A stretch of 64,000 nt of DNA. Origin: a virus. Made by a program: the position numbers and the translations under genes. This document shows, piece by piece, positions 33,178 to 60,741 of this stretch (positions are counted from its first letter, which is position 1; each line of letters starts with the position of its first letter). The stretch is from positions 1-64,000 of IMG/VR virus record IMGVR_UViG_3300027782_000025; one strand, given 5' to 3'. Below the pieces are notes generated by a model, which ran no database searches, was not told where the DNA came from, and worked only from the letters and a program-made list of their open reading frames with translations.

Positions 33178-33288
33178 GTGTCTAATGAATATTATGTGAT
33201 GTTTCTTGTTATTTCTTTGATTTTTATGATTCAGGTGGGTGTTCCTATTATTATTGATTATTTTTATGGTGTTGATGAGGATTTATAA
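33178..33288 (+). CDS. Small membrane peptide with GTG start (36 aa)
   Basis: A frame from GTG 33178 reads M-S-N-E-Y-Y-V-M-F-L-V-I-S-L-I-F-M-I-Q-V and on to TAA at 33288. TTTGGAG precedes it by seven bases. Residues 7-25 would span a membrane. Its end overlaps the end of the methyltransferase gene on the other strand. A shorter frame at 33110-33175 just upstream is also hydrophobic but has no ribosome binding site. Confidence 0.4.
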   Translation: MSNEYYVMFLVISLIFMIQVGVPIIIDYFYGVDEDL

Positions 33289-33846
33289 TGGTATTTGGAC
33301 GGCCCATGAGCTGTCTTTAAACGCTTTTACGTTTTTTTCTCCGAATATTTCATCTACGGCTTGTTTTACTCCGCTGTGGTAGTCATGTCCGCTTATTATT
33401 CCTCCGGCTTTTACTTTTTCTTTCCAGTTCTTTATGTCGTTTTTTACTGATCGGTAGTCGTGGTCTGCATCTATATATATTAGATGGTAGGAGCGGTTTG
33501 GTGTTTCTTTTGCAAGTTGGTTTGAGTTTACTTTTCTTTCTATGATGTTCGGGTTTCTTTTTTTCGTTTCTAGGAAGTCTTTGTATACTGTCTGGGCTCT
33601 TTGTGGTGGTTTTATAAATTCTTCCCAGATGTCGCAGCAGGTTATTTCTCCTACGTATTGGGCTATGAGTTCTGCTGATGCTCCTGCGTATGATCCTATT
33701 TCTAGAGCTGTCCAGGTTTTGTCTATTTTAAAGTGGTCTAGTAGGTCTTTTAGGCCGTGTAGTCTGTTGATGGCTGGCATTTGGGCGTTATAGTATTCGT
33801 CTGAGTGGTTTTCTGTTATTCTGTATCTGGCTAGGATGTGTTCCAT
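33283..33846 (-). CDS. Class I SAM-dependent methyltransferase (187 aa)
   Basis: W-T-A-L-E-I-G-S-Y-A-G-A-S-A near residue 42 is motif I of class I methyltransferases, and Y-I-D-A-D-H-D-Y-R-S-V-K-N-D with G-G-I-I-S-G-H-D-Y follows the TylF/CmcI-like (Methyltransf_24) pattern. It would methylate a small molecule, possibly a sugar. ATG 33846 was chosen because GGAAAG lies just upstream; a longer frame would add a Lys-rich 27-residue tail. It begins the modification cluster. Confidence 0.78.
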   Translation of the reverse strand: MEHILARYRITENHSDEYYNAQMPAINRLHGLKDLLDHFKIDKTWTALEIGSYAGASAELIAQYVGEITCCDIWEEFIKPPQRAQTVYKDFLETKKRNPNIIERKVNSNQLAKETPNRSYHLIYIDADHDYRSVKNDIKNWKEKVKAGGIISGHDYHSGVKQAVDEIFGEKNVKAFKDSSWAVQIPL

Positions 33847-33967
33847 TTTCTTTCCTTTTTTTGGCGTTTTCTTTATATACTTTTTGTTTTTTTTTGTCTT
33901 GGCGGGCTTTTGGGTTAGCTTTTGCACTCTGATGCAAGGGAGATATCTTCATTGGGCTTGAATGTTA

Positions 33968-34597
33968 TTATTTAGCCGTGATATGTGTTATTTTTATTAG
34001 GCAATTGTTGCTTTTGTTTTTGGAAAGCGGCCAATTTATTATTTCATAATTTAAGTCTATAGTTTCTCTTAGTATATCTAGTCCTTTAATATACTTTGTA
34101 ATTGTGATGTGGTTATTATGTATGTCTTCGATATAATAAACGCCGTTTTTGTTTAATTTATCTAAGGAGGAGGTTAGGAATGATATGTTGGCTTCTGAAT
34201 TGTGTTCTCCGTCGTCTATGATGAGGTCGAAGGTTATATTTTTTAGTGATTCTTGGTTCCACATTTCTTCGATGGATATTTTATCTCTCTGGTCGACGTA
34301 GAATGTTTTTATTCTTTCTTCGTCTTTTAATATAGTTTCATCGATGTCTGCGCCATAGATGGTGGCGTTGGGGAAGTATTCTCTCCAGCCTCTTAGTGAT
34401 GCGCTTGGTGTCCCTCCTTGCCCCATGTTAGCCGGTATTTTTGGATTGGTTGTGCCTATTCCCAGTTCGAATACGTTTTTTATTTCGAGCTTTTGGTCAT
34501 TAAATTGTTTAAAGTATTCTATTGTATAATTATGTATACCGTTTCCTTTATCGCTACCGTTTTTTGTCATTATTTTGCATAGGGGTGTTACATCCAT
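33968..34597 (-). CDS. Class I SAM-dependent methyltransferase (209 aa)
   Basis: V-F-E-L-G-I-G-T at about residue 42, Y-G-A-D-I-D, and F-D-L-I-I-D-D-G-E-H with G-G/N-G-V-Y-Y-I-E-D-I are the SAM-binding and catalytic-side motifs of the MycE/macrocin-type or glycan methyltransferase group (N-K-N-G-V-Y-Y-I-E-D). D-K-G-N-G-I-H-N-Y near the start fits this family. It sits beside FkbM-type enzymes and a fucosyltransferase, so a role in modifying a glycan is likely. ATG 34597 has only a weak purine-rich box before it. Confidence 0.75.
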   Translation of the reverse strand: MDVTPLCKIMTKNGSDKGNGIHNYTIEYFKQFNDQKLEIKNVFELGIGTTNPKIPANMGQGGTPSASLRGWREYFPNATIYGADIDETILKDEERIKTFYVDQRDKISIEEMWNQESLKNITFDLIIDDGEHNSEANISFLTSSLDKLNKNGVYYIEDIHNNHITITKYIKGLDILRETIDLNYEIINWPLSKNKSNNCLIKITHITAK

Positions 34598-34838
34598 TGT
34601 TTTTTTCTTTCTTAAAGTCGAGGTGATTAACCTGCGCCATGGCGGTGCCGGTTTATCTATTTTTTTTTGATTCTACGTTGGACGCAAGGATGATATATGT
34701 GGTGGCCTTGCAGCATACGGGGTCTTATTTATTAAAAATGTTAGTGTCTGTCGGACATTTATAAAAATTGATTATTTTAAAATAATTGACTTAAATATAT
34801 AATGTTTATAAGATTAATTTTTTAGGGCTAAAATCACT

Positions 34839-35516
34839 ATGATCGATGAAAATTTCAAAATTAATCCGTGCGATCCCGATGATTTTACGAGATGTTCTTT
34901 ATGTTTTGATATAGGGGCACATATAGGTAATTGGTCTTTGCAAAATATAAATAATTTTAATAAAATAATTGCGTTAGAGCCATCTACTAAGACTTTTGAT
35001 ATATTAGTGAAAAATTGTGCTAAACACAACATCATTTGTTTAAATTATGCTATAAGTAATGATATTAGAGAACAGATCGATTTTTATGAAGCCGATGAGG
35101 CTTCTGATATATCTTCGATAAATAAGAACTGGTTATGCTCGAAAGAATCAAGATTTTTTGGTCTTAAACACTCTTTAACCACCTGTAAATCTACCACCTT
35201 AGATAGGCTTGTAGAATTGTATGGAACACCTGATCTTATTAAAATTGATGTAGAGGGAGCAGAAGATTTAGTAATTCTATCTTTATCAAAGAAGGTTAAG
35301 ACTCTTTGCTTTGAATGGGCGCGAGAATCTAATTCTGTCACCACACAATGTATTGATCATCTTCTAAGCATCGGATTTACTAAATTTTATGTTCAGTTTG
35401 AGGATAAATATAGCTATGTTCCAAATGAAGAAGAATATACGGATGATTTAAATATTATTGAGTATTTGCTCACCAAAGAATTAAAATGTGATTGGGGTAT
35501 GGTTTGGGCTATTTGA
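34839..35516 (+). CDS. FkbM-family methyltransferase (225 aa)
   Basis: C-F-D-I-G-A-H-I-G-N at about residue 23 is the SAM loop; P-D-L-I-K-I-D-V-E-G-A-E-D-L is the signature of FkbM methyltransferases, and L-E-P-S-T-K-T is between them. These enzymes O-methylate sugars or secondary metabolites. Codons are AT-rich, clearly different from the genes before 32 kb. The intergenic stretch 34598-34838 before it is AT-rich with a TTGACT box but no convincing promoter. Confidence 0.82.
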   Translation: MIDENFKINPCDPDDFTRCSLCFDIGAHIGNWSLQNINNFNKIIALEPSTKTFDILVKNCAKHNIICLNYAISNDIREQIDFYEADEASDISSINKNWLCSKESRFFGLKHSLTTCKSTTLDRLVELYGTPDLIKIDVEGAEDLVILSLSKKVKTLCFEWARESNSVTTQCIDHLLSIGFTKFYVQFEDKYSYVPNEEEYTDDLNIIEYLLTKELKCDWGMVWAI

Positions 35517-35600
35517 ATTTTTAAAAACAATTCTTCTATAATAAATGAAGGTATTTATAATAAGTATTTCCATTAATCATTTTCTTCTAAAGGATAATAT

Positions 35601-36224
35601 ATGCTTCTTGATTTTATAGGATTAATAAAAAAGTATGATATGAAAATAAGAGGAGTGATACATGTCGGGTCACACCATGGGCAAGAAAATAATCTTTATA
35701 ATTTAATTAATGTTAAAAATAGGATTTTTTTTGAGCCTCTAGATTCTAATTTTTCTGTTTTAAAAAATAATATAGAGCCAACACACACCTTGGTCAAAAA
35801 AGCATTGGGAAATGATAATAAAAAGGTGAACATGTATGTGGAGAAGCAGAATTCTGGAATGTCAAGTTCGATCTTAAAACCGAAGTTACACATTACACAA
35901 TATCCGCATATTGTCTTCGATGAAACAGAAGTAGTCGAAATGATAAAATTAGATTCCTTTGAAAAAGATTTAACTGAATTTAATCTTATGGTAATCGATG
36001 TTCAAGGATATGAGCTCGAAGTCTTTAAAGGTGCTCAGAATTCACTAAAAAATATCGATTATATTATTTCGGAGATAAATAGAGATGAACTTTATGAAAA
36101 CTGTGCTAGGATCGATCAGCTCGTAGAATTTTTGAGTATTTATGGGTTCGAGTTGGTAGAGAGTAATTGGGCTGGAGGCACATGGGGAGATGGGCTATTT
36201 ATTAAAAGAGGCAAAAGCTTATGA
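35601..36224 (+). CDS. FkbM-family methyltransferase (207 aa)
   Basis: G-V-I-H-V-G-S-H-H-G-Q-E near residue 17 and L-M-V-I-D-V-Q-G-Y-E-L-E near residue 131 are FkbM-type SAM and active-site motifs; F-F-E-P-L lies between them. A second FkbM gene beside the first suggests two positions of one glycan are methylated. ATG 35601 follows AAAGGATAATAT. Its stop overlaps the next start as ATGA. Confidence 0.83.
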   Translation: MLLDFIGLIKKYDMKIRGVIHVGSHHGQENNLYNLINVKNRIFFEPLDSNFSVLKNNIEPTHTLVKKALGNDNKKVNMYVEKQNSGMSSSILKPKLHITQYPHIVFDETEVVEMIKLDSFEKDLTEFNLMVIDVQGYELEVFKGAQNSLKNIDYIISEINRDELYENCARIDQLVEFLSIYGFELVESNWAGGTWGDGLFIKRGKSL

Positions 36225-37244: not shown

Positions 37245-37790
37245 TTATTTTGAAGCGGCTGGTCCAATGCCCATCCTTGCCATTTTTGCTGCAGAGTCTG
37301 CGTATGGGTCTTTAGTGCCAATGTTTTTCTTTACTGGCCCCTTGTCCTGTTGAAAGTCAGATCCCTTGCGCTGTAGAGCGCGTTGGTTTTGCCATATCTT
37401 ATTTCCATCCGGTAGTGTGCGAGTTCTTGGCTTTGGCTTGCCGTCGACATAAGGCATCGGATCGTGACCAACTGTTAGCTTTGGTGCCCCTGGTTTTCTA
37501 GGTGCTAGTCGATACGCTTTATTTTTACTTCTTAAACTAGATGGATCTAAAACTTCTAGGAGATGTAATAATCTGTCTATGCTTTCTTCGACTGGTTCTT
37601 TTTTGGCGAAGGGATTCCCTTCTTTTTCTTCTTTTTTGGCGAATGGGTTTTCTTTAGGAGTTTTAGCTTTTTTGCGTAAAAACTCTGGTTTTGCTCCCAT
37701 AGCGTCGCCGGTTTCTTTTTGCTTTTTGGTCGGCGTCTCGAGATCTTCGTTCATTAGTCTTGATACACTATCGATATTATATGCTGACAT
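37245..37790 (-). CDS. Putative internal/scaffold-like protein with EESIDRL motif (181 aa)
   Basis: A Lys/Pro-rich protein with two copies of E-x-N-P-F-A-K-K-E, then V-E-E-S-I-D-R-L-L-H-L-L-E-V at about residues 68-81, then a basic Pro-rich tail. E-E-S-I-D-R-L is the linker motif that recurs in the 1675-residue protein at 39607 and L-L-E-V fits a T4-like prohead protease site; the N-terminal S-V-S-R-L-M-N-E is a second possible one. Internal-head or scaffold proteins have this composition. No domain is recognised. ATG 37790 follows ATAGGAGAATAAA. Confidence 0.65.
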   Translation of the reverse strand: MSAYNIDSVSRLMNEDLETPTKKQKETGDAMGAKPEFLRKKAKTPKENPFAKKEEKEGNPFAKKEPVEESIDRLLHLLEVLDPSSLRSKNKAYRLAPRKPGAPKLTVGHDPMPYVDGKPKPRTRTLPDGNKIWQNQRALQRKGSDFQQDKGPVKKNIGTKDPYADSAAKMARMGIGPAASK

Positions 37791-37838: not shown

Positions 37839-38981
37839 TCAATATTCTGCGTAGTCTCTGAGCTTGTCATAGAGTTTAGCGAGGAATCTGGAATGGTCGA
37901 TTACTTTTTTAAATCTCTGCTTTTCGGATTCAGTATTACCAGCTTTGCTTAAGGTGTTTTTGAGCTTATCCTCTGTTTGACCAAGAAAGGCTATTTCTGT
38001 AAGGATTTCTTCGAAATTAGATAAGTTACGGATGAAGTCGTATAGGTCACCTAGATATTCTCGCTGTACATTCGTGTTCTTATATTTTAGATATAATTTA
38101 TCTAATGAGCCTATATCTAGTTTAGATTTAATGACCATTAGGATGTTTTTAGCTTGTGTGATTATAGCAGATTGTAGTCTACCTAATTTAAGACTATGCT
38201 CTCTGGCTTTTTTGGCTGCTTCTGGTCTAAACTTATTAACTAATTGCCCAAAATAACCTGGTTTTTTATAATAGCCTGTGTCTTTCTCAGAGGTTATCTC
38301 TATGTTTTTATATTTCCTATTAGTTAAAAGTCTTAAAGCTTTCTCCTCACTATCGGCTTCGATGTGTCCGTGTTTGCGTATGCCGGTATTAGGATCATTA
38401 GCTATATATTCATATGTTTCTTCGGTTATTGGCTTTTTATTTTTCTTTTTGTGTTCGAGAGCTATAAATTCTTTTAAGCCTCTTATTAGACTACTGACAT
38501 CTGGTTCGATTTTAAGAAAGAGATCTTTACAGTTAGCTTTTAGAGTGGGCAGAACTTTGGCTAAGAAATATTTCGATAAAGCCGCAGGGTCTGTAACGTC
38601 AGCGTTGGCTGGGCGCTTTAGTCTCTGTTCATTAGATTTAATGATGTATTTGTTACGCTTGGTGTCAAATGTCGCTATTTTTATAGGTAGTGCGGCGCTA
38701 GGAAGTTTACTTAAGAAGCTAGGTGACTTTTTTAAATCTAGACCCAGATTAACATGGCGATAGTGGTAATCTATTACCACATTTACATATTTTTGGTTTT
38801 TTCTAGACTGCACGATCTGAGATACAGGGCCAATTTGTTTAGTCTGGCCGTTCCTATCTGTAAAACTGATTTGGTTTTTCGCCGGTATAAATGAGTATAC
38901 TTCATCTGCGGATCGGTCTTTAAGAGGTATAACCTGCTGGGTGCTTCCCACCACTTCATTTATAAGCTGATATAATCTCAT
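37839..38981 (-). CDS. Late-type protein with capsid-targeting-like N-terminus (380 aa)
   Basis: It begins M-R-L-Y-Q-L-I-N-E, matching M-[KR]-L-x-x-[IL]-[IL]-x-E seen at 47505, 55127, 59584 and 60559. Residues 25-65 (QISFTDRNGQTKQIGPVSQI, then V-Q-S-R-K-N-Q-K-Y) share with the protein at 58154 the pattern G-P-[IV]-x-x-I-V-Q-S-[KR]-K. The rest is helical and rich in Lys and Asn with a Y-E-Y-I-A-N-D-P-N-T segment. No enzyme motif is seen. It is probably packaged or assembled in the head, by inference from the N-terminus. Confidence 0.65.
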   Translation of the reverse strand: MRLYQLINEVVGSTQQVIPLKDRSADEVYSFIPAKNQISFTDRNGQTKQIGPVSQIVQSRKNQKYVNVVIDYHYRHVNLGLDLKKSPSFLSKLPSAALPIKIATFDTKRNKYIIKSNEQRLKRPANADVTDPAALSKYFLAKVLPTLKANCKDLFLKIEPDVSSLIRGLKEFIALEHKKKNKKPITEETYEYIANDPNTGIRKHGHIEADSEEKALRLLTNRKYKNIEITSEKDTGYYKKPGYFGQLVNKFRPEAAKKAREHSLKLGRLQSAIITQAKNILMVIKSKLDIGSLDKLYLKYKNTNVQREYLGDLYDFIRNLSNFEEILTEIAFLGQTEDKLKNTLSKAGNTESEKQRFKKVIDHSRFLAKLYDKLRDYAEY

Positions 38982-39006: not shown

Positions 39007-39564
39007 TTAGACTATTGTTTTTTGTATGAATTCTAATTTATTATAATAGCATAAGTATTTGCCAATAGCTAGAACTGGTCCTCTTTTAGCGCATTCTTCG
39101 GCATATAAACCATCTTGAGAATATGTCTCTAGTCTTCTAACGCCTTTTGCATATTTATATTTCACCATAAAGCTGGCTGTGTCTATGTGTTCTACTTTAG
39201 GTGTTGCGGTCGCCTTTAGTCTACTACGTCCGCTTTGATCCAGCTGTCCCCAAGTTACGACAGCGAAGTCATCTAATGCGAGAGCGAATTCTACCGATTG
39301 AAACCATTTTTCGTGAATAATATTATCGTCATCTAAGACATATAGCCAGTCTTCATTTTTAAATGGGAAGTTATCATATACATGATTTATAGCCTTTGTG
39401 CCAGCAATTCCATTTTTACTACACATTAGGGTAGTTGTGTTAGGATACCTTGGGACTCCCTCTGGATTATCATGGCATATTATCCAATGTGCTTGTTTTG
39501 GTATGGAGTTATACATCTCAGGTAGGTTATATGATCTTGAGCATGGTGTGATTATATAGAGCAT
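39007..39564 (-). CDS. Glycosyltransferase (GT2-like) with DDD motif (185 aa)
   Basis: M-L-Y-I-I-T-P-C-S-R at the start, W-I-I-C-H-D-N-P in the middle and W-L-Y-V-L-D-D-D-N-I-I at about residue 75 form the GT-A fold outline, with D-D-D as the metal- and nucleotide-sugar-binding motif. G-Y-A/E-C-A-K-R-G closes the acceptor part. Substrate unknown. ATG 39564 follows TCGAGTCCTT, a weak box. It lies between late-type genes, so it probably modifies a structural protein or glycan. Confidence 0.7.
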   Translation of the reverse strand: MLYIITPCSRSYNLPEMYNSIPKQAHWIICHDNPEGVPRYPNTTTLMCSKNGIAGTKAINHVYDNFPFKNEDWLYVLDDDNIIHEKWFQSVEFALALDDFAVVTWGQLDQSGRSRLKATATPKVEHIDTASFMVKYKYAKGVRRLETYSQDGLYAEECAKRGPVLAIGKYLCYYNKLEFIQKTIV

Positions 39565-39606: not shown

Positions 39607-42600
39607 TTATTCTTCGTCTATGTCGGATAAGTTAATGTCGTCGTCTGCGGTGGTATCTTTGAAATTTTTAAGATGCTCTCTTGCGGCTATGGCTTCACCT
39701 CTGAGGCGTCTTCGTAAATCATATTGAATGTTTTTTTGTTTTTTATGTTCTGGCGCTGGCCACTCGTGTTCCCAAGCGTCTTTTAGCGAGTTTTCATAAT
39801 CTTTATTAAGTTTTTTTTCTTCATCATGAAACGCTCCTATTAATAAACTCTTAATGGAGCTGGGTATGGTTCGATCATCTAATATCTCTTTTGGCGGATA
39901 GGGTTCTTTATATGAAAATAAATCTGCTCCGATTTTGAAGTTTTCGGCTCCTTTTTCCTTATATTCGTCCGCTTTTGCTTTGAGCGCTATAATAGATTGC
40001 TGAAACTTGGGTGGGTAGCTTCCAAAAAATCTGGCTCTTATTTTATTTATCGCTTTATCTAGCCAATTGCTGATAGGGTAATATTCTTTAAATTCCCTTC
40101 TACGCCCCCAATAGTCTTTTCTACTAGCTTCATATATAAGTGGCATTAATCTGTCTATAGCTTCGTCGGTAGTATCTGTCAAATTAATATCATCGTGTGG
40201 CACTATATCCTTTATCTTTAACTCGATTTCAGCTAAAAGATCTTCCCTAGTCATAACCGCCACATGTTCGGCATACGGCATTTCCCAAGGAGCGTTTAAG
40301 ATTAATAACTCGGTTTTAGGATCTTCCCATCTACCGTTATCATATCTGGGATTGTCTTTATCGAACGGCTTGATTACATCTTCAGCATAGTAGTATGCAT
40401 ATTCAGGGTCCTGTTTAATGGCCATTTCTCCTTCTGGCCATCTTCTTTTTAAAACATACTGGGCATAAAATAATGATGATTTTGCATCCGTAGAGATGAT
40501 TGGTTCAGCTTGCTTCCAAGGTCTATCAAGGACGTAATTCGCATAGAGGTAGGAAGCATAGGGGTGAGTTAGTATCTTAGGTTCAGCTTTGGGCCATCTT
40601 TTTTTTATAACGAATCTTGCCGTGGTGTAACATTCAAGAGCGTCTCGGCGGTTAATATCATAATCTTCTGGATCGACTTTATTCTCAGCTATAAGCGGCA
40701 TAAATCTATCGATCGCTTCTTCTGCGGTTCCAGACAGATCGGTCTCGTCATTTTTTATGAAAAACTGAGATGTTGATTTTACTTCATCTAAGAAGTCTTT
40801 AAATGGTATTTTTACTAGTCTATCAGCGTAAACTTTTGCGCGCCCCAGGTCTTTAATTATTATTGGTTCTGCTATATACCACCTTTCACCTAGTACAAAT
40901 TGAGCATAAAGCGATGCTACATGCGGATCTTTAATAATGGTACGCTCGGCCTCAGGACATCTCATTTTATTGACATTATCCTTATCTAAACTCCTAAAAT
41001 AAACATAATTAAATGCATTAATAGGACTCATCCTTTCAAAATCTGGTAGCTCTTCAGCATTCTCCATAATAAGTGGCATTAATCTATCGATCGCTTCTTC
41101 GGTTGTGTCAGTAAGATTCCTGTTTTCGTCTGGGAACATTTGACCCATTCTTATATCGACATCAGCTTGAATAACCTCTAGTGGCATGTGCGCAACATAT
41201 TGGGCGTAAAAGTAGGCATACTTTGGATCTTGCAATATGAATGGCTCAGCATCTTCCCACCTTAATTTATCCCTCTGGCCTGATTTACTATAGATATCTC
41301 TGGCATAAATATAAGCCCACTTTGGACTTTTCATAATATATTCTTCAGCATTAATGAATCTTTTCTTTCGATCGGCTTTTCTAATCGGCTCATGGTTTAA
41401 GACATTCTTAGCGTACGCTGAAGCATATTCTGGGTCATGTTTTATGATTTCTTCTGCGTCACTTAACCATTGTTCACACTTGCCATCTTGGTCCATTTTT
41501 AGAATGAAATTATATGCATAATTATAACATTCTTGTGGTGTCAGCTTTTTAGGATCTGGCAGAAGCCCTTCGATAATGAGCGGCACCAGTCTGTCGATTG
41601 ACTCATCAATACCAGTTAAGTCTTTGTCTTCTTGTGGGTGTAAGTCTCTTCGAATAGCTTCGACTTCTGCTAAAAATTGCTCATACGGCATCTGTGCTAT
41701 ATTTCTAGCATACCTTTCGGCCCAGCGTTTATCTCGTATTATGTAAGGTTCGGCCTCTGGCCACCTTATACCGAGGTTTTTACGTCTGTTTATTACATAA
41801 TCGACATATTCGTAAACATATTCTGGTGATGTTATTATATATGGCTCTGCCTCTGGCCACCTTTTGCCAAGATTTTTGCGTTTGTTGATAACATAATCAG
41901 CATATCTGCAAGCATATTCTGGTGATGTCTTTATAGATGGCTCTGCCTCTGGCCACCTTATACCGAGTCCTTTCTCTTTGTTGATAACATAAACGGCATA
42001 TTTGCAAGCATATTCAGGTGATGTCTTTATAGATGGTTCGGCCTCTGGCCACCTTTTACCGAGGTTTTTACCTTTGTTAATGGCATCTAACGTATAAAAG
42101 AAAGCATATCTTGGGTCTTTCATTATATATGGTTCGGCCTCTGGCCACCTCTTACCGCGGTTTTTACCTTTGTTCATATAACGGTAGATTTCATACTGAG
42201 TCATTTTGCTTGGGTCTGGCTCTTTTTTGTTTTCGCTGATAAGTGGCATCAGTTTATCGATCGACTCTTCGACGGTGTTGGATAAATCCAAATCATCCCC
42301 GCTAGTTAATTCCGATATCTTCATCTCTGCGTCTGCCTTAAGATCTTCAATTGACATTTTGGCTACCTCTGTACAATAAGCATATAGGTAATAACCATAA
42401 TCATCAACATCATCATCTTCGAAATGCTCTATTATTCGTAATTCGACCATTGGAGCTAATCTGATTTTACTTATATCGGTGGCATAGGACAGGGCAAATC
42501 GAAGATCCTTTCCTCCTAAAATAAGCGGTTCAGCAGCTTTCCAAGTGCCCTTTATAACGTTCTTAGCATAATTGAACGCCCAGTATTGATCTGTTAATAT

Positions 42601-44634
42601 TATGGGTTCGGCTTCGACCCATTCACCTTCTATGATGTATTGAGCATACTTATAAGCATACTCAGGTGATTTTAGGATTTCGCTTTCCTGCTTGGGTGTA
42701 AGTCCTTCTTCTTTAGCATTCTTCTTATCTAATGCTATATGAAAGAGCGCCATTGCGCGACGATTATCTTCACTACTTTCCACGATTATCTGCGTGGTGC
42801 TTTTTAATCCTTCTTCGGTGGTTTTAGATAGATCTAGATCATCAGCTGCATTCAGACCATTTAACTTTCTTTCTATATCCGATTTTAAAGCTTCTATCGA
42901 CATCTCAGCAACATTATTGGCGTAGAGTTCGCATATTTCGCTTTCTTTTTCTGAGTCATTTTCGGGTATGACAGGGTCGTGGTCTTCTAAGATTCTTGAC
43001 TCAGTCTCTATATCCCATCTTCCATTATCGTGATCATAGTCAGCTTGGTTAGAGGGTTTTATGATATAACGTGCATATAAATAAGCGATATAGGTATTGT
43101 TCTTTATAACGTTTTCGGCTGTCTTCCATCGCCTACCTAGGACATCTTTGGCATATGCATAGGCCCAGTATGGTTCAGACATAATCGTAGGCTCGGCTTC
43201 CTCCCATCTTTTGCCTAGGCATTTGCCATCATTAATAACATCGCGAGCATAATAGTAGGCTGCCCCCGGGTCTCGCATCATAACTGCTTCAGCCTTGGGG
43301 TCTGGCTCATAGTCTTCGCCATGTAGTTGTTTAGTCTTGTAATCGGTTATGGCATAAGTATAAACCGTAGTTGGTGTCATAGTTGAATAATCGCGTTCGA
43401 CTACAGCCTCAACAATGAGCGGCAATAAATTATCAATGGCTTCTTCAATAGTGTCTTTTAAGTCGATTGAGTCATGATAATGAAGATCGTTTAATTTATT
43501 TTCGATATCTTCACGTAATTCATCTTCTGAAGTCTTTGCCACGTGCTCTGCATAGTATTTTGCCGAACCACTATTAATTATACCTAGCTCTATTTCGGGA
43601 CTCTTCCAACGTTCCATTAATATGTCTCTAGCGTATCCATACGCTAGATGTGGATCAACCACTATGAATGGTTCAGCTTCTAACCATCTACCTCTATCGT
43701 AATCTGGATTTTCTTTATCATACGGCCGTATTACAAGCAAGGCATAATAATAGAGGTAATCTCTATCGTTATGTTCAATGCCTATATTTTTTAGAATATA
43801 TGGTTCGGCTTCAGGCCATCGACGTTTAAGATGATCTATGGCATAATGCACCATTACTCGAGCGCTGCTAGTTCTAACGTCTGGTTCGGGGTGTTTAAGG
43901 TTCGGATCCCACTTTGATTCTTCAACCACGTTCGTAAAATCTATGTCTTGGCCTGTATGTAGCACCTCTAGACGATAGTTTACTTCATCGTTTAATTCTT
44001 TGATCGTAAGCTCCGGTGCAACTGTGCGAGCATAAAGGGAGCCATAGATACTATCCAGAATTCTTCTCTCAGTCTGCGGATTATCATATCTTTTAGGATG
44101 TTTAAGATCCATACAATATAACGTGGCTATATAAGGATCATTAGAGATTACTGCCTCGGCATCTTCAGCATGTGGACCATCCCACTGATGCTCAAGGGCG
44201 CTTTTAGCATATTCGTAAGCCCAGTCTGGTCTAGAGGCCATAACTCGTTCTATCAAAGGCCACTTGCCCTTAACCAATTTAGCGTAATGTAGAGCAAGAT
44301 TTGGATCGGTACTAATCTTATCTTCGGCATAACGCCCTATTTCACTGTCAGGCCAAGGACCATCTAAGACATTTATTGCATAATACGCTGCAGCCTTAGG
44401 GTCTTCTTTAATGACGACTTCACCGTTAGGCCATTCTCGATAAAGGCGATTTTGCGCAAATAAATAGCAATTAAATGGCGTCCAATAAGGATCATTAGGC
44501 ACAGGGTCTTTATGTGATTTGGGTCGGTTTTGAAACGATGGCTCTGAGATATTCCGATTTTCTATAAGCATATGTTTTATAGCATCGATAGAAATTAGAA
44601 GATCGATACCGACTTGGTGCTTTTTATTACTCAT
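39607..44634 (-). CDS. Giant multi-module WPEAE-repeat polyprotein candidate (1675 aa)
   Basis: About 26 units of some 30 residues of the form A-x-x-Y-A-x-x-V-[IL]-x-x-R-W-P-E-A-E-P-x-I-x-x-D-P fill the protein. They fall into nine blocks separated by eight linkers of the form D-D-x-D-L-T-D-T-x-E-E-A-I-D-R-L-M-P-L-I-x-E, coded at about 40140, 40690, 41065, 41570, 42240, 42780, 43410 and 43910; six or seven of these end L-I-x-E, the T4 prohead protease consensus. The end D-D-D-I-N-L-S-D-I-D-E-E matches the ends of the single-module paralogues. Five 96 bp tandem copies lie at 41755-42160. It may be cut into many mature solenoid proteins; function unknown. Confidence 0.7.
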   Translation of the reverse strand: MSNKKHQVGIDLLISIDAIKHMLIENRNISEPSFQNRPKSHKDPVPNDPYWTPFNCYLFAQNRLYREWPNGEVVIKEDPKAAAYYAINVLDGPWPDSEIGRYAEDKISTDPNLALHYAKLVKGKWPLIERVMASRPDWAYEYAKSALEHQWDGPHAEDAEAVISNDPYIATLYCMDLKHPKRYDNPQTERRILDSIYGSLYARTVAPELTIKELNDEVNYRLEVLHTGQDIDFTNVVEESKWDPNLKHPEPDVRTSSARVMVHYAIDHLKRRWPEAEPYILKNIGIEHNDRDYLYYYALLVIRPYDKENPDYDRGRWLEAEPFIVVDPHLAYGYARDILMERWKSPEIELGIINSGSAKYYAEHVAKTSEDELREDIENKLNDLHYHDSIDLKDTIEEAIDNLLPLIVEAVVERDYSTMTPTTVYTYAITDYKTKQLHGEDYEPDPKAEAVMMRDPGAAYYYARDVINDGKCLGKRWEEAEPTIMSEPYWAYAYAKDVLGRRWKTAENVIKNNTYIAYLYARYIIKPSNQADYDHDNGRWDIETESRILEDHDPVIPENDSEKESEICELYANNVAEMSIEALKSDIERKLNGLNAADDLDLSKTTEEGLKSTTQIIVESSEDNRRAMALFHIALDKKNAKEEGLTPKQESEILKSPEYAYKYAQYIIEGEWVEAEPIILTDQYWAFNYAKNVIKGTWKAAEPLILGGKDLRFALSYATDISKIRLAPMVELRIIEHFEDDDVDDYGYYLYAYCTEVAKMSIEDLKADAEMKISELTSGDDLDLSNTVEESIDKLMPLISENKKEPDPSKMTQYEIYRYMNKGKNRGKRWPEAEPYIMKDPRYAFFYTLDAINKGKNLGKRWPEAEPSIKTSPEYACKYAVYVINKEKGLGIRWPEAEPSIKTSPEYACRYADYVINKRKNLGKRWPEAEPYIITSPEYVYEYVDYVINRRKNLGIRWPEAEPYIIRDKRWAERYARNIAQMPYEQFLAEVEAIRRDLHPQEDKDLTGIDESIDRLVPLIIEGLLPDPKKLTPQECYNYAYNFILKMDQDGKCEQWLSDAEEIIKHDPEYASAYAKNVLNHEPIRKADRKKRFINAEEYIMKSPKWAYIYARDIYSKSGQRDKLRWEDAEPFILQDPKYAYFYAQYVAHMPLEVIQADVDIRMGQMFPDENRNLTDTTEEAIDRLMPLIMENAEELPDFERMSPINAFNYVYFRSLDKDNVNKMRCPEAERTIIKDPHVASLYAQFVLGERWYIAEPIIIKDLGRAKVYADRLVKIPFKDFLDEVKSTSQFFIKNDETDLSGTAEEAIDRFMPLIAENKVDPEDYDINRRDALECYTTARFVIKKRWPKAEPKILTHPYASYLYANYVLDRPWKQAEPIISTDAKSSLFYAQYVLKRRWPEGEMAIKQDPEYAYYYAEDVIKPFDKDNPRYDNGRWEDPKTELLILNAPWEMPYAEHVAVMTREDLLAEIELKIKDIVPHDDINLTDTTDEAIDRLMPLIYEASRKDYWGRRREFKEYYPISNWLDKAINKIRARFFGSYPPKFQQSIIALKAKADEYKEKGAENFKIGADLFSYKEPYPPKEILDDRTIPSSIKSLLIGAFHDEEKKLNKDYENSLKDAWEHEWPAPEHKKQKNIQYDLRRRLRGEAIAAREHLKNFKDTTADDDINLSDIDEE
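41735..42180 (-). repeat. Five tandem 96 bp coding repeats
   Basis: The block C-T-C-T-G-G-C-C-A-C-C-T recurs every 96 bases (about 41755, 41851, 41947, 42043, 42139), encoding 32-residue units R-W-P-E-A-E-P-[SY]-I-[KI]-T-S-P-E-Y. The nucleotide copies are nearly identical, so this part of the gene expanded recently. Confidence 0.85.
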
Positions 44635-44716: not shown

Positions 44717-45556
44717 TTATTTTGGCGAGACGATGATAGGATAATCTGCTTCTTCCTCAGCCATAAAAAGATCAGTCTTTAGTCTAAAATTTATCTCCGC
44801 TTGCTTGCCGAATTCTCTCCAAACATCGCTACGACAGACACATTTAATCGTGTTAGCAAGATCATCTATGGAAGACTCGATTATACTGCCTGACAAATTA
44901 TTCAGCTGACTTATCTCGCTGATAACTGTCCTAGAGTTAATAATGGGATAGAACATTCTTACTTGCTCTTGTCTATTATAAGGCTCAAAAGCGTGAAGAT
45001 TGAGGATAGTTTTACTATCTTGGATGTACTTATCTAACTCAAAAGAACCATAAATCCATTGTAACTTAATATCATTATAAAGGCTTTTTTGAAGACTGTG
45101 AAATATCTTAAATCTGCGTTCATTCATATACCCATAGAATAGAACATCGAAATATGGCTCGTTTTTCATTTCGATTTTTTGTAAAGTATTAGTATGCAAG
45201 ATAGGAACTAAACGATTAACCTTGATACCGTTTTCTGCGAGAAAAGCACTATTTAAAAAATCAAAATCCCAGATCTCGTCCGCACCGTCTATATTGGATA
45301 TAGTCTTTTTTACTTCGTGCCAGTTGCTTCCTGCCATCAATTGTTCTAACTGATATACTATGATCTTCTGACCGGGGAATTTCTTTTTGATTTCTTTCAC
45401 TGACTCAAGTATGTATGTTCCGAGTAGAAATGTAGTATTTTCATGCTTTGGATTATCGAAATGTTCCAGCATCATACTTGTTACGTGACTAAAGAATTGA
45501 TTTAATTCATGAATTTTTATGAATTGACCAGAAATTACTTTAGCCGTCGTCGTCAT
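44717..45556 (-). CDS. GT1/GT4-like glycosyltransferase (279 aa)
   Basis: I-I-V-Y-Q-L-E-Q near residue 63, D-E-I-W-D-F-D, D-V-L-F-Y-G-Y-M-N-E-R-R at about 137 and I-L-N-L-H-A-F-E-P-Y-N-R-Q-E-Q-V-R are the outline of a phage GT-B enzyme in which the last block holds the E-x-x-x-x-x-E/R nucleotide-sugar-binding pattern. It is shorter than cellular GT4 enzymes. Substrate unknown. ATG 45556 lacks a strong ribosome binding site. The enzyme sits between two WPEAE genes. Confidence 0.6.
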   Translation of the reverse strand: MTTTAKVISGQFIKIHELNQFFSHVTSMMLEHFDNPKHENTTFLLGTYILESVKEIKKKFPGQKIIVYQLEQLMAGSNWHEVKKTISNIDGADEIWDFDFLNSAFLAENGIKVNRLVPILHTNTLQKIEMKNEPYFDVLFYGYMNERRFKIFHSLQKSLYNDIKLQWIYGSFELDKYIQDSKTILNLHAFEPYNRQEQVRMFYPIINSRTVISEISQLNNLSGSIIESSIDDLANTIKCVCRSDVWREFGKQAEINFRLKTDLFMAEEEADYPIIVSPK

Positions 45557-45578: not shown

Positions 45579-46901
45579 TCAACCTACACCCAATGGCCCT
45601 ATATCTCTAATATACATCTTATATCTGGATGGGTCTACTGCCTTTAGTATGCCTTCTATTTCTAGCCATCGATGCCCCAAAACATCAGTACAAAACATAT
45701 TTATGATAGGAATATTATTAAGAGCCGTTTCAATATCGAAATCATATATTACCTTCTCCCTGATCTCGTCTGATGTCATTTTTTCGAAGCTTGTTAGAAA
45801 GTAAGGATATTTGCTAATTATTAAGATGTTAGTAACCGGATCATCCCATAGTTTTCCGAAATGTCTTGCGTAATTCATTGCTTCGTGAATACTAGACTGT
45901 ATGATTTGCTCGGCCGCTGGCCAAGGGCGCTCTAAAACATTCCTTGCGTATTCACTAGCGAGGTAATCGACTCTAAGAATGGCCGGTTCGCCTTTTGGCC
46001 ATGGCGCCTTGAGTATCTGATTTGCATAGACATAGCTACTATCAGCATGTCTTGATATTGCATTTTCAGCCTCTGGCCAGCTTTCGTAGCCTTTATCTCT
46101 AGCGAAAATAACTAAATCCGCTGGTTTAATAACTTTCGAATCTACCAGGTCATCAATTTGTTTCGATGATAATCTGCTTAAATCTGATGTTTCATAATAA
46201 TGTCGCCAGTTCTTCTCGTCTTGGTCAGATTCGCCCTCAAGTAAAAAACTTCTCAATTCGCTGTTGATCTGGGCCATATTACTCAAGAATATTTTAGCAT
46301 ATGAACTGCAGTTAGTAGTTTTATGGTCTTGTATATCTTTCTTAGCCTTAGATATTATCTGGTGATCGACGATAGCGCCGTTTTTTCTTCCTGTCCATCT
46401 CTTCCTTAAAATCTTCAGAGCATAGAGGGCGGCAGTTTCGGGATCTGACCCTATTATGCTTTCGCCTAATTCCCATTCTTCCTTAAGAATCGTCATAACA
46501 TATGCTAAAGCGCCCTGTGGTGTTTCGATGATAATTGATTCCGCTGTTCTCCATCTCCCTGATTTATTATGGCTATTGCTTTCGATTATTATAGAAGCAT
46601 AATCGATTAGATTTTTAGGGTCCCGTCGTTCCAGTAGTTCTCTTTCACCAGCCGGCCATCTCTCCCCAATTATATCAGCATAGTCGATTATCTGTTTTAA
46701 AGACATCTCAGCAGGATCTGGTTCACCACTCTTCTCTTCTAGCATAGATATATTCATCGCCTCTGTAAAAAATCCGGCGGCATCATAAAACGAACGCTTG
46801 GCATTTACCGAAACGCTTACTTCTTCTAACAGACGCATACTATCCATACCCAACGGCATTTTTTTAAAGCGGCCAGTATTATGATTTTGCGGGTTTTTCA
46901 T
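45579..46901 (-). CDS. WPEAE-repeat protein with cleavage-like motifs (440 aa)
   Basis: Nine or so WPEAE units such as G-E-R-W-P-A-G-E-R, G-R-W-R-T-A-E-S, A-P-W-P-K-G-E-P and R-P-W-P-A-A-E-Q occur through the protein. M-R-L-L-E-E-V-S-V-S at about residue 22 (coded near 46838) resembles the capsid-targeting-type starts, and F-L-L-E-G near residue 217 resembles a prohead protease site between two blocks. ATG 46901 has no good ribosome binding site; the Met at 46838 is an alternative start. The C-terminus (G-H-R-W-L-E-I-E) resembles that of the protein at 55293. Confidence 0.65.
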   Translation of the reverse strand: MKNPQNHNTGRFKKMPLGMDSMRLLEEVSVSVNAKRSFYDAAGFFTEAMNISMLEEKSGEPDPAEMSLKQIIDYADIIGERWPAGERELLERRDPKNLIDYASIIIESNSHNKSGRWRTAESIIIETPQGALAYVMTILKEEWELGESIIGSDPETAALYALKILRKRWTGRKNGAIVDHQIISKAKKDIQDHKTTNCSSYAKIFLSNMAQINSELRSFLLEGESDQDEKNWRHYYETSDLSRLSSKQIDDLVDSKVIKPADLVIFARDKGYESWPEAENAISRHADSSYVYANQILKAPWPKGEPAILRVDYLASEYARNVLERPWPAAEQIIQSSIHEAMNYARHFGKLWDDPVTNILIISKYPYFLTSFEKMTSDEIREKVIYDFDIETALNNIPIINMFCTDVLGHRWLEIEGILKAVDPSRYKMYIRDIGPLGVG

Positions 46902-49865: not shown

Positions 49866-50600
49866 CTATCTAGAACCATACATGAAATGATAAGCTGTCA
49901 TATCTTCGATTTCATTTAAGTTATGGGTATCGAATTCTGTGATACTACGAAAGAATGGCGGATCCATTTTCGCTAAACAGGCCACACCACGCTGACACTT
50001 TGCGATAAATTCCGTTTTAGTCTTACATAAATAATGATTAATCTGGGCAATGTCTGCAGGACCGTCTGGGTTATAAGGCCCATTAAACAGCTTTTTATTA
50101 GTATCTCCGATAACACAATTTGGATTGTGAATATCCATGATTGCATCCCTTGATAGTCTTAGATTTAATATCGATTTTATATGCTGATCCACATGAGCAC
50201 CACGCTTTGTAAATCTCTTGATCGTACTGTAGTCTATGATCTTCCCTTTGTGCCCATTGTCCCCAAAAAGGTACCAATTTATACCTAAAGCCGGTAGATC
50301 TTCATATTCCTTTAAAAAATCACCGATATTATTGTGTTTTTTTAAAACCATGAATTCATCAACATCGAGAAATGCCGCCCAATCGAAATTATTTCGATTG
50401 TTATCTAGAAAAAGATTATAACAAATGGTTTGCTTACACTGTCCATTGGCTGTGAGAAATCTTGCTTTTTCGTTCTTAGTCTTAGATTCCCAATCATTTT
50501 GGTAAACAAAGATTTCATCGAAACCTAATTTTTTATGATAATCGATCCATTCATCAATATAATTGTCTTCATTTTTTGCAATGCAGACTAATGCGATCAT
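49866..50600 (-). CDS. GT92-like glycosyltransferase (244 aa)
   Basis: M-I-A-L-V-C-I-A-K-N-E-D-N-Y-I-D-E-W-I-D-Y-H at the start, W-A-A-F-L-D-V-D-E-F-M-V near residue 76 and I-N-H-Y-L-C-K-T near residue 200 are the conserved blocks of DUF23/GT92-like enzymes; D-x-D-E is the metal-binding motif. It would add a sugar, perhaps galactose, to an acceptor. ATG 50600 follows AAAGGCGCACT. It is single-copy behind a terminator. Confidence 0.8.
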   Translation of the reverse strand: MIALVCIAKNEDNYIDEWIDYHKKLGFDEIFVYQNDWESKTKNEKARFLTANGQCKQTICYNLFLDNNRNNFDWAAFLDVDEFMVLKKHNNIGDFLKEYEDLPALGINWYLFGDNGHKGKIIDYSTIKRFTKRGAHVDQHIKSILNLRLSRDAIMDIHNPNCVIGDTNKKLFNGPYNPDGPADIAQINHYLCKTKTEFIAKCQRGVACLAKMDPPFFRSITEFDTHNLNEIEDMTAYHFMYGSR

Positions 50601-52319: not shown

Positions 52320-53390
52320 TTATTCTTGCTCAAGATCTGAAAGGTCAAGACCATCATCTTTGAGAAGCTCTGATACTATGAAATTATTGTTTTCTATGAA
52401 AGATTCTAAATCTTCAAAGCCAGCCAATACCGTCGCATAAAATTTAAGCTGACTTCTAGCATGACCACTTAATTCTTTAAGCTTTATCATCTCGCGTTCT
52501 AATGCCGGATCGTCCCAAAAATAAGTCGTCAACGAGCCAACAGCATAATTAAGAGCTTGTCTAGTGTCTGTCTTAATTATACCCTCAGCCTCTCTCCAAC
52601 GCTCTTCTAGAATCTCGTTAGCATAATCTACACAGCATTCGGCATTTTTTAATTCTAAGAGTGCGTCTTCGCCATCAGGCCAAGAGCCTTTAACATGAAT
52701 ACAATATTCACATATCGCTCTAGGGTTTGTTAAGATAACTGGTTCGCCTTCTGGCCAAGGCTCACCCATGATGTCTTTAGCGTATAAATAGCAAGCATAC
52801 GCACTTTTTAGCACATATGGTTTAGCTAATTCGAATATCTCATCCCTATATTCAGGACTTACTTTATATGAATTAAGGAATTGTACAACTTGTATCGGCC
52901 TCCATAATTTAAATTCGGGTATCTCGTAAGGCCCGACCCACGCTTCAATGATTGATCTCTTTTCCATGAGCGAATCTATAGCGTTTTCGAGTTTTTCGTT
53001 TAACATTGAATCAAGACCATCGCTTGATAACAGATCCTCGATCTTTAAATTAAATGATTTACAATAAATAGGTGCCCAAACCATAGATTCGGCTATGGTT
53101 TTATTGGCTCTCTGGTTTTTCCAGCGTTCGTGCATTATATCCTGAGCATACCTAACAGCAGAGGTCGGGTCTTTAGCTATAGTGTCTTCTGCATCAGGCC
53201 ATCTTATAGGAATACCGTGGTTATTTTTATTTATTACATTTTTGGCATACAGATATGATAAGTAAGGGTCAGTTTTAATTATATTTTCATTTTCGAAAAT
53301 CCTAAGACCTGTTAAAACAGCTGATTTATAACATTCCGCCGGCGATTTTATTTTTTGGGTAATGCTCTTTTTAACAGCATGATTAAGCAT
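52320..53390 (-). CDS. WPEAE-repeat protein, two-module type (356 aa)
   Basis: Units such as I-R-W-P-D-A-E-D-T, H-E-R-W-K, G-E-P-W-P-E-G-E-P and E-E-R-W-R-E-A-E-G occur on both sides of a linker L-E-N-A-I-D-S-L-M-E-K-R-S-I-I-E-A, which resembles the E-E-A-I-D-R-L linkers of the 1675-residue protein and contains I-I-E-A, a prohead-protease-like site. The end D-G-L-D-L-S-D-L-E-Q-E matches the family end. Function unknown. ATG 53390 lacks a strong ribosome binding site. Confidence 0.68.
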   Translation of the reverse strand: MLNHAVKKSITQKIKSPAECYKSAVLTGLRIFENENIIKTDPYLSYLYAKNVINKNNHGIPIRWPDAEDTIAKDPTSAVRYAQDIMHERWKNQRANKTIAESMVWAPIYCKSFNLKIEDLLSSDGLDSMLNEKLENAIDSLMEKRSIIEAWVGPYEIPEFKLWRPIQVVQFLNSYKVSPEYRDEIFELAKPYVLKSAYACYLYAKDIMGEPWPEGEPVILTNPRAICEYCIHVKGSWPDGEDALLELKNAECCVDYANEILEERWREAEGIIKTDTRQALNYAVGSLTTYFWDDPALEREMIKLKELSGHARSQLKFYATVLAGFEDLESFIENNNFIVSELLKDDGLDLSDLEQE

Positions 53391-53405: not shown

Positions 53406-55127
53406 TTACACGTAGGAAGCTTCTTGAGCGCCTAAGGTCGGCACATCTATCTTGAGATCCTGTAACTTTTTTATAACATCAGCATATAACAATTGACCTT
53501 TTTTCTTAGGATCATTTTGATCGACTATAGTCGAGAGTGCCTGCCATATTTCTAGAGGTACCAATTCGACCATCTTGGCTGTGAACTTATTAAATCTTAT
53601 CAGCGTTACTAAAGAACGAATATCGCCGCACAAGCATACCACCACCCTTGGATCGCCCATAATATCTTCGGCCCCAGCACCAGAGCTTAAAAACTGAACC
53701 ATTGGCGCAGGGAAGGTTTTTCTATCTGACACAGGCCTTCTTAGCCCTAAAAATAGTTCCTTGGTCGCTGTTTTGCCTATAACCAGATGGCCCGCTGCGT
53801 GGTAAATGACTGAGCCGTATATCGTTGGTTTTCTCACAAATAGGCTAACGATTTCTTTTGTACTATCAGAGATCTCTAATTCGGAGTCACTAGCTAATCC
53901 GTAGCCGCTAGCTGAACCGGTACCAGCCAAATAGAGTTCGGATAAGCCTAATATTTGCAAGGTTTGCATTAAAGATGAGGTATCGAAATCTGCGCCAGCA
54001 TCGTTTAATTTGTATTTCACTTCGTTCCTTGCATTGTCGATAAGAGGTTTAACTGCTATAGAGATAAATTTAGGATTCCTAGCGAGTTGAAGGCTATCGA
54101 CTATTTGTGATCTTAACTGTGGATTATTTGTTACCTGTTCAACACCACCAAACCTGACTATCCCAGCGATATTTTCAGCTTGAACTTCCTGATAGTTTTT
54201 GATGTAACCTATCGTTTCATCCTGAGTAGCGCCCTCTGGTGGGCTATAAGATAACATCGTCTTAGCCGCCATCATCGCAGTCAAAAACATCTTATTAATG
54301 TTCGTATCCACTTTATTTCCGACCTCTGCGCCAGAGCGATCCATGAACTGCTCGTCTTTCCCCTTCACTACTGTTTGGTAGGTAGCCACTTTATCCTTAA
54401 ACATTGTATAGATAGAATCATTTTTAAGATAATTCTCAGCTCTGCTGCCGTTAGGATAATCAGTCCTAGTGCACCATTTCGACCCCATACCAGCCTCTGC
54501 TAAAGACGTGATTACGGTTTCTGGTTCTAAGCCAAAATTTTTAGCCAAGTCCAATCGAGGATACATGTAGACCTCATACCCATTTTGGTCTAGCATCTTT
54601 ACAGCACCGCTTGTGACAATGGGATTGAAAGCTGTGGCCTTCTTATTTCTTAACTTGTCCATAAGATTTTGGGAGGCAATCAGTGCGCTTCTTATATCAT
54701 GTTTAAGTAAGTCTGTAGGTACTTCGGGAAAATTCTTTTTTAGTTGGTCTTTTCGTCCTGGATTACTAAAAAATTGGATAAGTTCGACCATACTTGCTGT
54801 ATCTTCAGGCAGTTTAATCTGTGGATTATCGCTTGGCATATTCCGGAATCCGTCGATAGCGATTTTACCATCATTGAATTGTGCTGATATCCACGGCTTT
54901 TTTAGGAATTCGGTACCGACCACCCACTTTTTCGTCGGTGTCGGATCACAGTCAGATATAATTTTTACCAATTCTGCTGCCTTACCCAGGTCTTGTGATT
55001 CAATACCAGATGATTTAGGATCAATCGATGGCATCTTATCTCCGCACATAAACTGTATTCTTTTTGGGTCTAGTTTCGATAAGACTTTTTGGATATCAGT
55101 ATTTTCGAGAATTAAGGATAACTTCAT
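53406..55127 (-). CDS. Late-type protein with KWCT motif and capsid-targeting-like N-terminus (573 aa)
   Basis: Start M-K-L-S-L-I-L-E-N (ATG 55127) fits M-[KR]-L-x-x-[IL]-x-E. Around residue 215 G-M-G-S-K-W-C-T-R-T-D recalls a K-W-C-T-x-A motif I have seen in other large-phage proteins of unknown function. Later I-Y-T-M-F-K-D-K and a long helical C-terminus. No enzyme motif is visible. An upstream TTG would lengthen it by eight residues (MPDMRKYR). A TATAATACT sequence lies just upstream, as before 59584. Probably a structural or packaged protein. Confidence 0.65.
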   Translation of the reverse strand: MKLSLILENTDIQKVLSKLDPKRIQFMCGDKMPSIDPKSSGIESQDLGKAAELVKIISDCDPTPTKKWVVGTEFLKKPWISAQFNDGKIAIDGFRNMPSDNPQIKLPEDTASMVELIQFFSNPGRKDQLKKNFPEVPTDLLKHDIRSALIASQNLMDKLRNKKATAFNPIVTSGAVKMLDQNGYEVYMYPRLDLAKNFGLEPETVITSLAEAGMGSKWCTRTDYPNGSRAENYLKNDSIYTMFKDKVATYQTVVKGKDEQFMDRSGAEVGNKVDTNINKMFLTAMMAAKTMLSYSPPEGATQDETIGYIKNYQEVQAENIAGIVRFGGVEQVTNNPQLRSQIVDSLQLARNPKFISIAVKPLIDNARNEVKYKLNDAGADFDTSSLMQTLQILGLSELYLAGTGSASGYGLASDSELEISDSTKEIVSLFVRKPTIYGSVIYHAAGHLVIGKTATKELFLGLRRPVSDRKTFPAPMVQFLSSGAGAEDIMGDPRVVVCLCGDIRSLVTLIRFNKFTAKMVELVPLEIWQALSTIVDQNDPKKKGQLLYADVIKKLQDLKIDVPTLGAQEASYV

Positions 55128-55292
55128 ACGATATTTTCTCATATCTGGCAAGTATTATATTTTTATATTTTATTAAAATCATGATACATATCTAATGATA
55201 AAAAGACACCAGTTATGTAGCTAATAGAGCCGTGCCAAATATAAAATATGTACCAATAACTTATTAAGAACAATTTTAAAAGCGTGACTAAA

Positions 55293-58153: not shown

Positions 58154-59584
<1,431 letters not shown>

Positions 59585-60572: not shown

Positions 60573-60741
60573 TATCATCGAAGGTCATTGGGAAGTCCCG
60601 CCGATGGATTATCCTAACTCGCTAGCGCCGACAAAGAAACGCGGTCGGCTCAGCTTTTTAGTAAACCCAGACGACCGCGTTAATTTTTTCAAGAAAAAGA
60701 AAAAGCCTAAATTTCACCCTGAGACTGGCTTTCATCGGTAA
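60559..60741 (+). CDS. Small basic protein with capsid-targeting-like start (60 aa)
   Basis: The start M-K-L-I-S-I-I-E-G-H-W fits the M-K-L-x-x-[IL]-[IL]-E-G pattern of the late proteins; the rest is Pro-, Arg- and Lys-rich (TKKRGRLSFLV, then F-F-K-K-K-K-K-P-K-F), like T4 internal proteins. It overlaps the deaminase end by 14 bases. Packaging in the head is inferred from the start and the charge. Confidence 0.6.
   Translation: MKLISIIEGHWEVPPMDYPNSLAPTKKRGRLSFLVNPDDRVNFFKKKKKPKFHPETGFHR

Follow-up and report, generated by a model that had tools for sequence, protein, structure and literature searches.

The reading frame at 39607-44634 on the reverse strand of the 64-kb window (the whole stretch of DNA analysed, positions 1 to 64,000 of a virus record of 274,625 bp, a 274-kb genome) is probably, at a rough probability of 0.6, a fused tandem array of genes for internal-head proteins (cargo or ejection proteins) of a giant T4-type phage, with tags that would load the chain and a protease that would cut it. 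The farther-reaching reading is held more tentatively, at somewhat below even odds: a DNA phage would here possess a true polyprotein with a targeting and cleavage tag at each joint, from which the prohead protease would yield ~8 ejected proteins.

Anatomy of the candidate polyprotein

The ORF comprises 1675 uninterrupted codons and encodes 1675 aa (196 kDa) of mostly acidic composition (pI 5.0). It is built of ~25-residue repeat blocks (G-R-W-P-E-A-E-P-x-I-x-x-D-P-x-x-A-x-x-Y-A-x-x-V-I) with joints between them. The leader is 25 aa long and ends in a linker-type 10-mer at aa 16-25 (IDAIKHMLIE/N, the slash marking the predicted cut); the leader element ..SIDAIKHMLIE/N covers aa 12-25 (44560-44601, reverse strand as all elements of this ORF). 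Seven complete linkers end at aa 409, 619, 801, 1022, 1191, 1317 and 1502, and the residues after I-x-E are, in this order, A, S, N, G, N, N and A. The linkers are DSIDLKDTIEEAIDNLLPLIVE/A (43408-43473), DDLDLSKTTEEGLKSTTQIIVE/S (42778-42843), DDLDLSNTVEESIDKLMPLISE/N (42232-42297), QEDKDLTGIDESIDRLVPLIIE/G (41569-41634), DENRNLTDTTEEAIDRLMPLIME/N (41062-41130), DETDLSGTAEEAIDRFMPLIAE/N (40684-40749, ending as a helix at the P1 Glu in the AF2 model) and DDINLTDTTDEAIDRLMPLIYE/A (40129-40194). The second of these, at aa 598-619 (EEGLKSTTQIIVE), is diverged: the I-D-R-L-x-P core (IDRLMP) is lost and I-x-E/S is retained. A degenerate first linker, QDIDFTNVVEESKWDPN (aa 229-245, 43900-43950), consists of the acidic tail only, without an intact site.

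The first-pass annotation had described a polyprotein with eight linkers of one uniform form, and this observation is partly confirmed, with corrections: seven linkers are complete, the eighth (aa 229-245) has the acidic tail without AIDRLMPLIxE, and the uniform form breaks down at aa 598-619. Its nine mature units would require a cut at the degenerate linker too; the intact sites predict eight units and a leader peptide.

The C-terminal unit (173 aa, 39610-40128) is free of the repeat and ends in the same acidic tail, ADDDINLSDIDEE; no family match was found for it, and no enzyme domain was found in the polyprotein. Pfam HTH and FF matches to the repeats are weak, under the curated cut-offs, fall on the repeat unit and are regarded as noise. 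One module contains tandem 96-bp repeats (41750-42178, 4.5 copies, 81% matches), the only short stretch of similar tandem repeats in the ORF and, unlike the old joints, a younger local expansion. An assembly artefact is rejected, since synonymous sites differ throughout the joints and only this one stretch of similar repeats is present.

Conservation of the joints

The bare motif [LI]xE occurs 28 times in the polyprotein, with 26 sites expected from composition; its counting is rejected as evidence because this is chance density. The pattern I-D-x-Φ-x-x-Φ-[IL]-x-E is found at six joints and at the N-terminus, and the 10-mer [IV]-[DN]-x-Φ-x-x-Φ-[ILM]-x-E, which was derived from these and other leaders and is hence partly post hoc, occurs seven times against 0.04 in shuffles. 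The Glu is directly followed by A, G, S or N in 8 of 8 joint and leader sites and in 4 of 20 other [LI]xE sites (p = 1.6e-4, indicative only, as the joints are homologous and not fully independent).

The leader half of the linkers shares 71% identity between joints with the diverged copy excluded (58% including it); the module bodies reach 36% and the acidic tails 30%. Where linkers share an amino acid, the codon is the same in 43% of cases (41% expected from codon usage). Since leader identity is high and synonymous codons are randomised, the linkers are old copies kept alike at the protein level, i.e. conserved by selection and not by recent copying. P1 is always E, P3 always I and P1' always A, S, N or G, whereas P2 is free (V, V, S, I, M, A, Y). 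Such a free P2 between constrained neighbours looks like a protease-site signature, as for a reader of (L/I)-x-E, the sequence read by the T4-type prohead protease (PMC9026906).

Likeness to the T4 capsid-targeting sequence

Within the T4 capsid-targeting sequence (CTS), targeting is governed by residues 4 and 7, and processing by residues 8 and 10 (PMC9026906). When the linker end IDRLMPLIME/N is set against the T4 IPII/IPIII leader MKTYQEFIAE/A (taken from NC_000866), positions 4, 7 and 8 of the linker are hydrophobic and position 10 is Glu. These four functional positions are matched by the polyprotein leader and by six of the seven linkers, which suggests that the linker is a capsid-targeting sequence and more than a cleavage site. 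The T4-type (L/I)-x-E motif reported by the first-pass annotation is present in the linkers; the apparent match to the whole CTS, and that of the N-terminal 10-mer, are additions to it.

T4-type leaders are also present at the N-termini of ten other reverse-strand proteins (1.4 ± 1.2 expected), against three on the forward strand (1.3 expected). The neighbour at 37839-38981 (reverse strand) starts with MRLYQLINE/V, and further reverse-strand examples are MKIKQIITE/A and MNISSILHE/K. Shorter leaders occur in two reverse-strand proteins, MKLSLILE/N at 53406-55142, together with a G-x-G-x-x-W-C-T-R motif as in the repeat proteins of relatives, and the related MKLSILYE/S at 58154-59584. The 629-aa protein of locus L002 (L002:12673-14562) has the leader MNLSIILE/S and, around N-C-I-R-S, weak similarity to PcfJ (PF14284) that stays below the cut-off; it may belong with the WCTR-motif proteins. 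Methyltransferase- and glycosyltransferase-like genes lie among the leader-bearing genes (33283-36224, 39007-39564, 44717-45556 and 49866-50600).

The linker stretch E-E-[AS]-I-D-R-L had been noted at two further places. It is exact in the 181-aa protein at 37245-37790 (reverse strand), which has the N-terminal leader YNIDSVSRLMNE/D and an internal EESIDRLLHLLE/V; in the 482-aa protein at 60707-62155 (reverse strand), with the internal 10-mer copy IDRLTEDLFE/T, it reads E-D-S-I-D-R-L.

A longer leader is common to three unrelated proteins: YDVNQIASFITE/N (9958-10497), YDVNDIAKFLTE/D (L002:9469-10887) and the YNIDSVSRLMNE/D just named. The scaffold-like protein (L002:16920-17648) ends in YNINSIAANLDE/NLI, and its C-terminal tail YNINSIAANLDENLI resembles these three N-terminal leaders. 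A pattern for both yields nine matches in the 281 thousand ORF residues of all loci, five of them scaffold C-termini, four N-terminal leaders and none internal, against ~1 match anywhere and 0.07 at termini in shuffles; the result is a lead, because the pattern was drawn after seeing those sequences. The likeness points to imitation of the scaffold tail by cargo leaders, and mimicry of this C-terminal tail may also be how the polyprotein tag works.

A long, mostly acidic chain (pI 5.0) that has a motif in common with the scaffold C-terminus could also be a scaffold-like core component, cut in order to leave the prohead as T4 gp22 and gp67 are, and not cargo that stays; in T4, proteins of the core undergo cleavage at many sites (PMC9026906). 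We consider this very improbable, as a separate scaffold-like gene with its own sites lies in the usual place, the predicted cuts would release whole folded modules, which at 15-45 kDa could hardly leave with ease, and the single-unit versions in relatives resemble IP-type cargo with one short leader.

Paralogues and structure

The free-standing paralogues had been said to end where the linker would start, which is true of two of the four, both leaderless single-module proteins on the forward strand. These end in DNINLVGVEE (13180-13860) and NDDLTDTKSE (16418-17173), where the leader would begin, and in the alignment to the modules both stop exactly before A-I-D-R-L-M-P-L-I-x-E. The linker is therefore composed of the acidic C-terminal tail of one unit and the leader of the next.

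The other two are two-module proteins on the reverse strand with a candidate [LI]xE at the module boundary. The first (440 aa, 45579-46901) is without the acidic tail and has the candidate sites ISMLEE/KSGEPDP and RSFLLE/GES, the latter at the boundary. The second (356 aa, 52320-53390) has the internal ENAIDSLMEKRSIIE/AWV (boundary site RSIIE/A) and does end with an acidic tail, DDGLDLSDLEQE. It lies 15 nt from the leader-bearing gene at 53406-55142, and the order of the two matches that of the relatives' proteins with a single leader, a WCTR domain and repeats. The gene at 52320-53390 may be a detached repeat half, since the one-protein order of relatives is here split into two genes.

AF2, run on one module with its two linkers and an alignment of window and relative sequences, predicts an alpha-solenoid with pLDDT 95-98 and, outside it, a separate helix for the preceding linker (pLDDT 75-80), which ends at the P1 Glu and has lower-confidence flanks. 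A model of a two-linker stretch made without alignment (pLDDT 38) was discarded. Among solved structures there is no match by sequence and no PDB entry by fold; the best viral model by fold is A0A248SK38 (probability 0.99, E = 0.03).

The helical model raises the question whether the linkers are mere capping helices of a cytoplasmic repeat protein, with a structural I-x-E to which the protease is irrelevant. Family members without a leader exist, including the two forward-strand ones described here, as such a protein would allow; the same leaderless paralogues, however, manage without the linker leader and stop just before it. A loop of lower confidence sets the modelled helix apart from the solenoid, and the same 10-mer occurs at the N-termini and the scaffold tail of unrelated proteins. 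A capping role is quite unlikely on these grounds.

Prohead protease and head genes

A gp21-like protease and prohead genes outside the window, which the first-pass annotation had proposed to look for, are present. The protease at ~112.7-113.5 kb of the record (L002:17700-18452) matches Pfam Peptidase_S77 (MEROPS S77) with 56.8 bits (cut-off 27) and PHROG 207, head maturation protease, with E=7e-39, and is flanked by the scaffold-like gene, a T4-type capsid gene, portal and terminase. Aligned to the T4 gp21 structure 5jbl, it has FDHP opposite a position occupied by Ala in the deposited structure, and SSRG against ASRG, with the Ser conserved. We take the Ala to be the H85A mutant, and the His of FDHP and the Ser of SSRG to be the active-site residues of a gp21-type protease, so that the encoded enzyme looks active. 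The packaging and cutting proposed by the first-pass annotation, for which it had named a genome devoid of prohead protease as contrary evidence, is relieved of that objection and strengthened by the CTS match, and can be called partly supported.

The capsid protein of relatives keeps [SA]ILE/N and a conserved Glu site [LIF]-x-E before QTTTA, near the end of its N-terminal region. T4 gp23 loses 65 residues, and the capsid site of the relatives lies near the place of this loss, in agreement with a predicted protease cut after (L/I)-x-E. The protease of relatives has [VLI]IAE/T near the N-terminus in all sequences covering that region, predicted to be its own (L/I)-x-E site; the own N-terminal site of T4 gp21 is LIE-9 (PMC9026906). 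The portal protein (L003:1637-4147) contains an intein-like insert (CLVGSTPILLVNG...VHNS), and a ribonucleotide-reductase-like protein (L003:9976-13356) a larger one (CLPKGTLVHLKRG...VHNT) with homing-endonuclease-like motifs. In the relative L017 (8800-10338), ORFs are inserted between the prohead protease and the scaffold-like gene, including a 512-aa homing-endonuclease/acetyltransferase-like protein.

Several observations count against a cut array. Bare [LI]xE stands at chance density, one linker is diverged and one degenerate, the predicted cut would leave the CTS on a unit where T4 removes it, and the phages scanned gave no comparable fused chain. The model shows a helical linker, whereas an extended site is what proteases usually require. 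The repeated helices might be docking elements that give a long internal or scaffold-associated chain avidity, the chain staying whole or being cut at one or two joints. The IDRLMP part, which is the targeting part in T4, is conserved about as strongly as LIxE, and this agrees with targeting without cutting, as does the modelled helix. It is nevertheless unlikely, as constraint acts on P3, P1 and P1' but not on P2, the linker at aa 598-619 dropped the targeting core and retains I-x-E/S, and an active-looking protease is encoded that would meet the chain in the prohead.

Relatives and search for other fused chains

Contigs with a related protease (G008, G009 and G010) possess the repeat proteins as separate genes with the leaders MKLSLILE/A, MKLSTLLE/T and MKLSLLIE/A, followed by a W-C-T-R-motif domain and then by repeats. 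Closer relatives are of the L014/L015 type, whose protease is 98-100% identical. The same architecture, MKLSLILE/A-[WCTR]-[repeats], is found in L046-L048. A DNA pattern for two adjacent W-P-E-A-E units detects 62 stretches in IMG/VR. Leaders occur in 18 of 57 family proteins against 28 of 335 other ORFs of the same stretches (p = 9e-6, inflated by paralogues). As 39 of the 57 repeat proteins of other contigs have no recognisable leader (searched with one pattern), the repeat itself does not imply packaging.

Tandem repeat genes with 4-nt overlaps are frequent (L073, L075, L086 and L111). In one group, the leader MKLRDLFE/A is followed by MDLYKYHSNPE, and the leaderless homologues L077 and L112 start at that Met (M[ND]LY.YH.NPE), about the residue after the cut. 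Leaders therefore look like exchangeable parts bordered at the cut.

Searching 50,697 phage records by tblastn with the polyprotein, a single module and a relative's protein yielded no useful match. The sole match was Salicola phage SCTP-2 gp435 (E=5), later supported by its architecture: it shares ~25-residue W-P-E-A-E-P repeats and the order [leader ..ILLE/S]-[W-C-T-S motif]-[repeats]. Viral contigs were scanned with the polyprotein, the DNA pattern of the linkers, the neighbouring genes and the C-terminal unit, and a second copy was not found. No second polyprotein or other fused chain with tandem tags was found in the phage records or viral contigs scanned, and the longest repeat protein elsewhere has ~750 aa.

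Proposed working

In the preferred reading of a loaded and cut array, tandem internal-protein genes bearing a CTS would have become fused by loss of stop codons. Each unit would be an alpha-solenoid built from W-P-E-A-E-P repeats of ~25 residues, with a flexible acidic tail behind it, and each joint a copy of a T4-type CTS, presumably a short amphipathic helix with the consensus I-D-R-L-M-P-L-I-x-E.

The chain would be made late in infection, as its strand and neighbours suggest: the polyprotein lies on the same strand as the head genes and the leader-bearing proteins. The T4 late promoter TATAAATA is not enriched on either strand. Plus-strand genes (e.g. 13180 and 16418) are often preceded by TTTTGGGTTTT..CAAGGAGA and some minus-strand genes by AAAAGATA..TATAATA, possibly early and late promoter types.

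Several CTS helices would bind the scaffold core, or the capsid site that the scaffold tail uses; with several CTS per chain, loading would have high avidity and the units would enter in a fixed ratio. Once the prohead closes, the S77 gp21-like protease would cut after L-I-x-E at the leader and up to seven joints. The predicted products are the leader peptide and about eight units (14.7-45 kDa), which would stay among the DNA in the virion and be ejected with it into the next host cell. After the cut, the CTS would remain on the C-terminus of the preceding unit and could tether it until the head matures. T4 internal protein I acts in counter-defence, and by analogy the role of the units in the host cell might, at a guess, be counter-defence or the binding of host proteins, the latter because alpha-solenoids usually bind other proteins.

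Comparison with known systems

T4 IPII and IPIII bear a CTS, are processed by gp21 and are ejected. The candidate polyprotein resembles them in a short N-terminal leader that ends in (L/I)-x-E (IDAIKHMLIE/N), in the hydrophobic CTS positions 4, 7 and 8 with Glu at 10, in a protease of the same Pfam family and in a T4-type head gene set. The T4 proteins have one removable N-terminal CTS, in contrast to ~8 copies before almost every module here, so that the leader is not single and wholly N-terminal and CTS-like copies stand at most internal joints. The T4 CTS is removed by the cut, whereas that of the polyprotein is predicted to be retained at the C-terminal end of the unit before it. The modules and IPII/IPIII have unrelated folds, and the leader, with 25 aa, is slightly longer than the 10-19 aa of T4.

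Internal proteins of phiKZ and SPN3US (protease gp175/gp245, S80) are cut after x-x-E, and paralogous cargo families share propeptides, according to the available text of two papers (PMC5694885, PMC10052503). As far as that text goes, these are likewise giant phages with many processed internal proteins; their cuts differ in removing propeptides and in the motif A/S-x-E, and a chain in which homologous mature units are joined by tags is not described there (PMC5694885, PMC10052503).

Polyvalent proteins (Iyer et al. 2017, PMC5512222) are large, are predicted to be injected with phage DNA and are likened by the authors to RNA-virus polyproteins. They unite different enzymatic domains, sometimes with their own peptidase, whereas the modules here are homologous solenoids, not different biochemical domains, and are predicted to be cut by the prohead protease in trans. 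The W-P-E-A-E-P proteins of large phages differ as separate genes of ~130-750 aa, mostly in tandem arrays, in which internal leader copies were not found.

The cutting of a polyprotein into several working units by a viral protease is a hallmark trait of RNA viruses and of retroviruses, and the literature searched describes no tailed phage in which the prohead protease cuts a polyprotein into several working units. What a CTS binds is an old question, which the match between cargo leaders and scaffold tail opens to a direct test. If true, the proposed array would explain how the amounts of ejected proteins and their ratio are controlled in phages, would provide a sequence rule for cargo in uncultured giant phages, and would represent a natural design for loading phage heads, with several targeting tags and self-releasing cargo.
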